64,000 nt of DNA from Phycisphaeraceae bacterium (GTDB lineage Bacteria; Planctomycetota; Phycisphaerae; Phycisphaerales; UBA1924). Numbering within the stretch: position 1 is the first letter of the stretch; each line of letters opens with the position of its first letter. The notes under the pieces were generated by a model. The model was given only the letters and a program-made list of their open reading frames with translations. It did not search any database and was not told the DNA's origin. Positions 21,843 to 23,846 of the stretch are shown piece after piece. The DNA is taken from NCBI GenBank assembly GCA_007693965.1, contig RECQ01000054.1, positions 62,001 through 126,000 of the forward strand. The letters run 5' to 3'. Made by a program: the position numbers and the translations under genes.

Positions 21843-21877
21843 GTGAGGCAGAGTGTTGCAGTGTGGGGGCAGGTGGG
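21843..21877 (+). promoter_or_regulatory. MraZ-type operator: four GTG boxes at 10-bp spacing
   Basis: GTG boxes begin at 21843, 21853, 21863 and 21873 (GTGAG, GTGTT, GTGGG, GTGGG), an exact 10-bp period, ending 44 bp before the mraZ start. MraZ of E. coli is known to bind TGGG repeats with 5-bp spacing (10-bp period) in its own promoter. Position just downstream of GATAAT (21824-21829) fits autorepression. Confidence 0.65.
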
Positions 21878-21921
21878 GTATCTTCCCACGGCCCGAGCCG
21901 GGCGCCGAAGGAACACGATGC

Positions 21922-22389
21922 GTGCTATTCACCGGCCACTACGAACATGCGATCGACGCCAAGCATCGACTGGCGATACCGGCGGAGATTCGCGCCCGGT
22001 GGCGTCCGGAGGATGGCTCGGCGTGGCAGGCGCTGCCGTGGGTGGATGGGGCCATCCGGCTGTACACAGAATCGGACTTTCACGCCCGGGCCGCGGAATA
22101 TCGGACCGGCCTGACGCCGGACCAGGACGAGGCGACGCTGCGTCTGACGCTCTTCGGCATGTCGCGGCGACTGGAGATGGATTCGGCGGGACGCATCCGC
22201 ATCCCCGAGGAGATGCTGGAACTGACCGGGCTGGGGACGGAAGTGGCGCTCGTGGGCGCGGGCGAGTGGCTGGAAATCAAGGACAGGGCCGGCTGGAGGG
22301 CCGGCATGCAGGATCGTCTGGCGCAGTTGCCCGAACTGATGGCCCGGATCGAGGCCAAGCGGAGGGCGAAGGCGAATGGCGAGGCCTGA
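21922..22389 (+). CDS. mraZ: Transcriptional regulator / division protein MraZ
   Basis: MraZ, 155 residues, a DNA-binding protein with two AbrB-like swapped-hairpin repeats. The first repeat is VLFTGHYEHAIDAKHRLAIP (residues 1-20), the second near FGMSRRLEMDSAGRIRIP. The start is GTG 21922 with AAGGAA 9 nt upstream. It normally opens the dcw division cluster followed by rsmH, but here the next 566 bp contain no gene, so it is solitary. Autoregulation is suggested by the GTG-box array upstream. Confidence 0.93.
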   Translation: MLFTGHYEHAIDAKHRLAIPAEIRARWRPEDGSAWQALPWVDGAIRLYTESDFHARAAEYRTGLTPDQDEATLRLTLFGMSRRLEMDSAGRIRIPEEMLELTGLGTEVALVGAGEWLEIKDRAGWRAGMQDRLAQLPELMARIEAKRRAKANGEA

Positions 22390-22553
22390 CAACGAATCGA
22401 TTTGTTCGGAGGCGGGAGAGATCCCGTTCGTGAGAGTGGAAGCGCCCGACGCGGCTGGAAACGGTCGCAATCGGGTTTGACGGACTGTGCGTTCTTTCAT
22501 GAGTCGAGCCGCTCGCGATGAGTGCGGGCGGGATGCGGATTGGTGAGTCGGTC

Positions 22554-22816
22554 GCGGGTTCAAGGACGAACCCGCACCCGGCCGGGCGGTCGAGGTGCGC
22601 GCCCGAACGAGAGGAGCCCTGCACGGACAACACGGACCAGTTACGCCCCACGATCGAAAGGACTCGATCACCCTGATTCCGGCCCCAAGGATGGAGCCCG
22701 ATTCGGGCCTGCTGACGGAGAGATCCGCCGGCAGGTGAGTGCAAGGGTGCGGGCGATTCCTGGCACGGCTCAAGAGCCCGGTGGATCGAGAGTTCCCCCG
22801 GGCTTTTTCTTCTCTT
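22554..22816 (+). ncRNA. Candidate structured small RNA with ANGGAN loops (CsrB/RsmY-like)
   Basis: This non-coding stretch of the 566-bp gap after mraZ has several stem-loops and ends in an intrinsic terminator. Hairpin A (22554-22575): 8-bp perfect stem, loop AAGGAC. Hairpin B (22652-22669): 6-bp perfect stem, loop AAGGAC. Hairpin C (22681-22698): 5 pairs plus one mismatch, loop AAGGAT. Further ANGGAN motifs are ACGGAC at 22623 and 22632 and ACGGAG at 22715, beside a 10-pair hairpin (22708-22735). Hexaloops of ANGGAN are the known CsrA/RsmA target. No open frame of coding character is seen. The 5' end is unknown; TTGACG at 22477 could be a -35, but no good -10 follows. It may also be a processed mraZ 3' UTR. 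The bases between mraZ and 22554 hold nothing else recognised. Confidence 0.5.
22772..22816 (+). terminator. Intrinsic terminator of the candidate small RNA
   Basis: Stem AGCCCGG (22775-22781) pairs with CCGGGCT (22798-22804), with inner GGA/TCC pairing, followed by TTTTTCTTCTCTT (22804-22816). The T-rich tail is on the plus strand, marking the end of a rightward transcript from the mraZ side. Confidence 0.8.
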
Positions 22817-23699: not shown

Positions 23700-23846
23700 G
23701 AGTTCCGAGTTCCGAGTTGGGAGTACCGAGTACCGAGTACCGAGTACTGAGTACTGAGTGCTGAGTGCTGAGTTCTGAGTGCTGAGTTCTGAGTGCTGAG
23801 TTCCGAGTACCGAGTACCGAGTACCGAGTTCTGAGTACCGAGTGTG
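23700..23846 (+). repeat. GAGTNNN heptamer array, 21 units
   Basis: Twenty-one head-to-tail 7-bp units, each beginning GAGT; position 5 varies (T, A, G), position 6 is almost always C, and position 7 is C or T. Runs of identical neighbours (for example three GAGTACC at 23721) suggest local duplication. On the minus strand the units encode peptides of the LGTQNSVL style, but no gene is supported. Confidence 0.98.

Follow-up and report, generated by a model that had tools for sequence, protein, structure and literature searches.

The window analysed here, a stretch of 64,000 nucleotides, belongs to a genome of 3.48 Mb in 74 contigs and contains the gene mraZ, followed by approximately 420 nt without recognisable coding content. 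In this region the first-pass annotation had described two hairpins with perfect stems and an identical loop, a third exposed site and an intrinsic terminator at the segment end, and had read them as a candidate RNA for sequestering CsrA. All four features were found again (Table 1), but the helix presenting the third site is weaker and interrupted. The terminator-like stem, AGAGCCCGG/CCGGGCTTT, which is followed by TTTTTCTT and closes the segment, was read from the sequence; a simple scanner passed over it because its loop measures 16 nt. Upstream of mraZ, both here and in relatives, MraZ-box-like repeats are present, and in the window the stretch that carries them is the probable promoter of a unit consisting of mraZ and the RNA. 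Further along the window, degenerate short tandem repeats (GAGTACCGAGTACTGAGTGCTGAGTTCT) occupy positions 23700-23790, behind a glutamine amidotransferase gene.

Table 1. Features of the mraZ locus and of the proposed RNA, in window coordinates
Feature	Position	Strand	Basis or remark
MraZ-box-like repeats GTGTTGCA / GTGTGGGG / GGTGGGG abutting a possible -10, before mraZ	21850-21884	+	sequence
mraZ coding sequence, GTG start	21922-22389	+	Pfam MraZ, E 2e-11
Proposed CsrA-binding RNA: mraZ 3' UTR or piece cut from it	22390-22811	+	hairpin anatomy, conserved position after mraZ; ends predicted
GAAA tetraloop hairpin GCGGCTG-GAAA-CGGTCGC, possible 5' domain	22451-22468	+	by eye
Hairpin 1, 8 bp: GCGGGTTC-AAGGAC-GAACCCGC	22554-22575	+	loop from 22562
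ACGGAC twice, between hairpins 1 and 2; second copy fairly open	22623-22637	+	
Hairpin 2, 6 bp: GATCGA-AAGGAC-TCGATC	22652-22669	+	loop from 22658
Hairpin 3, with AAGGAT exposed (22687-22692); helix interrupted and weaker	22672-22707	+	predicted fold
Intrinsic-terminator-like hairpin and T run	22773-22811	+	sequence

Whether 22390-22816 or 22530-22816 was folded, GGA was predicted to be unpaired at each of the three AAGGAC/AAGGAT sites with a probability of about 1.0, and this probability was at least 0.82 when 22554-22780 was folded alone. Four other ANGGAN motifs, rather than the three claimed previously, were counted in the segment (22623, 22632, 22691 and 22715), of which only the one at 22632 is fairly open. 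The earlier figure of about 11 GGA triplets in about 280 nt holds for 22530-22816, but just nine fall within 22554-22816. Hairpins 1 and 2 are the sole ANGGAN hexaloops closed by at least five Watson-Crick pairs on either strand of the 64 kb (162 hexaloops with such stems per strand). Among 20,000 dinucleotide shuffles of 22390-22816, none contained two such hexaloops and 22 contained one; the hairpin array is far above chance expectation. Since hairpins in related loci start just past the mraZ stop codon, the element as judged from its relatives probably exceeds 22554-22816. GNRA hairpins resembling the GAAA tetraloop hairpin were seen by eye in several relatives.

A search of 60 relatives with the segment itself retrieved no alignable DNA copy, the only matches being 22-38 nt long and typical of GC-rich DNA, whereas the design was recovered when mraZ served as an anchor. 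MraZ was present in 113 of the 120 family genomes sampled and in 114 of 121 across the order. The relatives found through it are Phycisphaerales metagenome assemblies, which places the genome analysed here in that order of the Planctomycetota. Downstream of mraZ, 68 family loci contained 147 strict hexaloops; 57 of these were ANGGAN, while shuffled sequences yielded 0.24 +/- 0.43 ANGGAN hexaloops in total. As stems were too divergent for an alignment spanning the families, we counted motifs loop-first and compared them with control loops: motifs were chosen by the loop alone and complementarity of their flanks was asked for afterwards, so that the test is not circular. At 112 loci from six families, 141 of 490 ANGGAN motifs had a closing stem of 5 bp or more, compared with 3/344 for CNGGAN, 4/245 for GNGGAN and 3/179 for TNGGAN, related genomes being taken as separate observations and the loci being divergent and drawn from many genera. 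The closing pair was C-G in 108 of these 141 hairpins, and loop position 2 was free. Near relatives keep individual hairpins in place, with a different N in ANGGAN or with altered stems whose pairing is preserved. Retention of the ANGGAN loops in relatives, with stems diverging but still paired, is an outcome in favour of the first-pass annotation. The design was clear or fairly clear in families f1, f2, f3, f5 and f6. It was weak in f4, and 12 of 73 f1 loci contained no hexaloop hairpin of at least four pairs, which counts against a decoy function.

These patterns also bear on the idea that the segment is a small-protein gene or a DNA operator (e.g. a set of MraZ sites) and the hairpins mere by-products, which we consider very improbable. 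An open frame of 174 codons does span the segment, but it has no Pfam match, and the failure to align DNA from any of the 60 relatives likewise argues against this idea. In its favour, f5 has, as the only family, a small conserved ORF of ~60-70 codons (...WHPAxISDRxLLEL...LGGAFA...) at the matching place, where it overlaps with the hairpins (L118-L120, L123-L125). As for an operator, stem sequences differ between loci with pairing kept, and the MraZ-box-like repeats lie upstream of mraZ instead.

The position of the hairpins was followed in a second collection of 52 named-genome loci, whose organisms overlap with those of the first. On the mraZ strand, 70 ANGGAN hairpins were found in the first 250 nt past the mraZ stop and six in the next 250, while the flanking kilobases and the opposite strand contained next to none. 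At least two hairpins per locus were present in 24 of the 52 genomes; in some relatives there was a single strong hairpin. Terminator-like ends were detected in the sense orientation at 32 and in the antisense orientation at nine of 71 f1 loci. About half of the f1 loci have no terminator of the form searched for, a point against the decoy. Runs of CCACCACC occur near the 3' end of the RNA at 34 of 71 f1 loci (e.g. L025, L031, L034, L043); they are present neither in sampled f2-f5 loci nor in the window.

We then turned to the presumed ligand. A search for csrA in this genome, suggested by the first-pass annotation, revealed two genes (contigs 59 and 12), one of them adjoining fliW, and both CsrA proteins can be aligned along their length with structurally characterised CsrA/RsmE chains. 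Within the family, csrA was detected in 119 and fliW in 118 of 120 genomes, the single csrA-negative genome being 64% complete. The second CsrA-like protein is shorter and carries a 4-residue insertion near position 20 (L002, contig 12:153640-153804); such a shorter protein is present in nearly all family genomes. One genome (G021) has no fliW and a weak csrA match, and nevertheless keeps the hairpins.

The same type of hairpin was found ahead of csrA. An ANGGAN hairpin of at least four pairs occupies the fliW-csrA gap in 12 of 21 genomes (at least five pairs in 8 of 21), and in csrA leaders 15 of 51 ANGGAN motifs were paired in this manner, compared with 1 of 62 control motifs. The leader of the genome's own csrA contains CCGCGTC-ACGGAC-GACGCGG about 80 nt ahead of the start codon (L001:1425-1430, G000 contig 59), and csrA leaders with an ANGGAN hairpin occur in relatives at L234, L240-L243, L247 and L249-L251. 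CsrA regulates its own mRNA in other bacteria, and this together with the leader hairpins links this type of hairpin with CsrA on grounds separate from mraZ; it also suggests that CsrA is autoregulated in Phycisphaerales.

The recognition element of RsmE/CsrA is an ANGGAN hexaloop in which A and GGA are invariant, and in the SELEX consensus RUACARGGAUGU the hexamer is flanked by C and G (PMC7652899). Given the loop-specific closure, the C-G closing pair, the position and strand of the hairpins, the presence of csrA and fliW, and the hairpins in csrA leaders, recognition of these hairpins by CsrA is very likely. One could also imagine that the loops bind another reader of GGA, such as the anti-Shine-Dalgarno end of 16S rRNA or a different RNA-binding protein, as AGGA resembles the Shine-Dalgarno core. 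We hold this to be improbable: the invariant A two bases ahead of GGA, the free position 2, the hexaloop and the C-G closure match CsrA/RsmE (PMC7652899) and would be unexpected for ribosome binding, and the hairpins in csrA leaders are of the identical type.

Whether CsrA would act on the mraZ transcript itself or be titrated by it is the point on which the remaining readings differ. In other orders of the class, rsmH mostly comes next after mraZ, and ANGGAN hairpins follow mraZ there as well, often in the mraZ-rsmH gap (L155, L165, L168, L171, L175). In the first 500 nt past mraZ at 29 such loci, 22 of 138 ANGGAN motifs were paired, as against 4 of 229 control motifs, and further downstream 5 of 133 ANGGAN motifs were paired. 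This suggests an older link between CsrA and the division gene cluster. In view of this weaker excess of hairpins after mraZ in other orders, the element may originally have been an intercistronic mraZ-rsmH site. In the genome analysed here, rsmH sits on a contig other than that of mraZ, so that no division gene lies 3' of the mraZ-RNA unit, and an ANGGAN hairpin of this kind is absent ahead of rsmH (contig 35).

The main rival of titration is one in which CsrA sites within the mraZ 3' UTR (or the mraZ-rsmH junction) act in cis, setting the stability or termination of mraZ mRNA and leaving free CsrA unchanged. Such a cis role would fit the mraZ-rsmH gap hairpins of other orders, which to that extent speak against a decoy. 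A further point for the cis reading is that hairpins can begin within about 10-50 nt of the mraZ stop. Moreover, a search for a sigma-70-like promoter belonging to the RNA itself was negative, although planctomycete promoters may differ from that consensus, and for this reason the RNA may simply be a 3' UTR. Strong hairpins are also fewer than in CsrB, with two here and a single one in some relatives, the latter again in favour of a cis role. On the other hand, multiple hairpins per locus are common, a terminator-like hairpin follows the array, and the array has been kept despite the departure of mraZ from the division gene cluster. The location of rsmH on another contig and the terminator-like end favour a separate function for the RNA, and on balance we regard the cis-acting reading as rather unlikely.

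We therefore favour, with moderate confidence, a non-coding RNA linked to mraZ whose CsrA-binding loops titrate CsrA; titration in trans is the best, if unproven, reading. According to this model, the segment ~22390-22811 would be co-transcribed with mraZ and perhaps released from the 3' end of that mRNA by cleavage. The RNA would present two or three stable ANGGAN stem-loops and further GGA sites and would end at the intrinsic terminator. Several CsrA dimers could then bind the loops and would thus be withdrawn from mRNA leaders, including that of csrA itself, so that free CsrA would fall. The RNA would work like CsrB or RsmZ but alongside FliW, with its synthesis tied to mraZ; the MraZ-box-like repeats upstream of mraZ suggest that this synthesis might be under MraZ. 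A discrete transcript, its binding by CsrA, titration and control by MraZ are what we infer here, and the decoy interpretation put forward by the first-pass annotation is supported, its functional part being a well-supported inference.

Several known RNAs resemble the element in part. Like RsmX/RsmY/RsmZ of Pseudomonas and CsrB/CsrC of enterobacteria, it has several ANGGAN/GGA stem-loops and an intrinsic-terminator-like end, and csrA is present in the genome. Those RNAs, however, are encoded by free-standing genes, while the element is linked to mraZ and occurs in a phylum with FliW; it also has fewer sites than CsrB and, with two or three strong hairpins in this genome, is nearer to RsmY/RsmZ. 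The Rfam models of CsrB, CsrC, RsmX/Y/Z (PrrB) and TwoAYGGAY gave no match at gathering score, nor any with E up to 10 on the segment, and no relevant Rfam family matched the element. The upstream UvrY-type palindrome through which a GacA/UvrY-type regulator activates RNAs of that class, sought in its E. coli/Pseudomonas form only, occurred at chance level and nowhere near the RNA. CsrA sponges inside mRNAs exist, for example in the fimA leader of Salmonella; both these and the element would be borne by mRNA, but theirs lie in a leader and the element lies 3' of a coding sequence and is found order-wide. The TwoAYGGAY RNA motif (Rfam RF01731), of unknown function and known from human gut, gammaproteobacteria and Clostridiales, likewise has paired hairpins with a GGA loop, AYGGAY (PMC2864571), whereas in the element loop position 2 can be any base, the number of hairpins is variable and the model finds no match.

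A search of the genome with a hairpin model, in which 150 of 749 candidates were scored, placed the mraZ locus first among those scored. Its other hits were inspected and set aside: C12 falls among densely packed ORFs, C2 consists of two imperfect repeats, C67 offers just one hairpin and C59 is a leader, that of a universal stress protein (Usp) gene. A universal stress protein gene leader with AAGGAC and AGGGAG beside the start codon (L232:790-829, contig 59, ~88,890) is a candidate CsrA target.

In Bacillus and Campylobacter, CsrA is antagonised by a protein through FliW-CsrA partner switching. As fliW stands next to csrA in the genomes that carry the element, Phycisphaerales probably have FliW antagonism too, and the element would be a second CsrA antagonist beside it. 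A survey from 2015 proposed that BarA-UvrY-type systems drive CsrA-antagonist sRNAs across gammaproteobacteria and rarely or never elsewhere; BarA-UvrY and FliW were almost mutually exclusive, with Planctomycetes among the groups possibly using FliW (PMC4682653). Whether FliW and sRNAs act jointly on CsrA in any species was still to be determined according to a 2020 review (PMC7652899). In the open-access papers searched, we found no report of such an RNA. To our knowledge there is no earlier candidate for joint action of FliW and an RNA decoy, and the element would be the first.

A conserved decoy-like RNA in an order with csrA and fliW makes the question of joint action directly testable. 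More tentatively, Phycisphaerales may have two CsrA antagonists, FliW and a sponge at the mraZ 3' end, a division signal linked to MraZ might directly set free CsrA, and a class-ancestral mraZ-rsmH element might have become a separate decoy once mraZ left the division cluster. Because loop and pairing rather than sequence are conserved, CsrA-binding RNAs have perhaps been missed so far. The element would connect CsrA with mraZ, the gene of a cell-division regulator.
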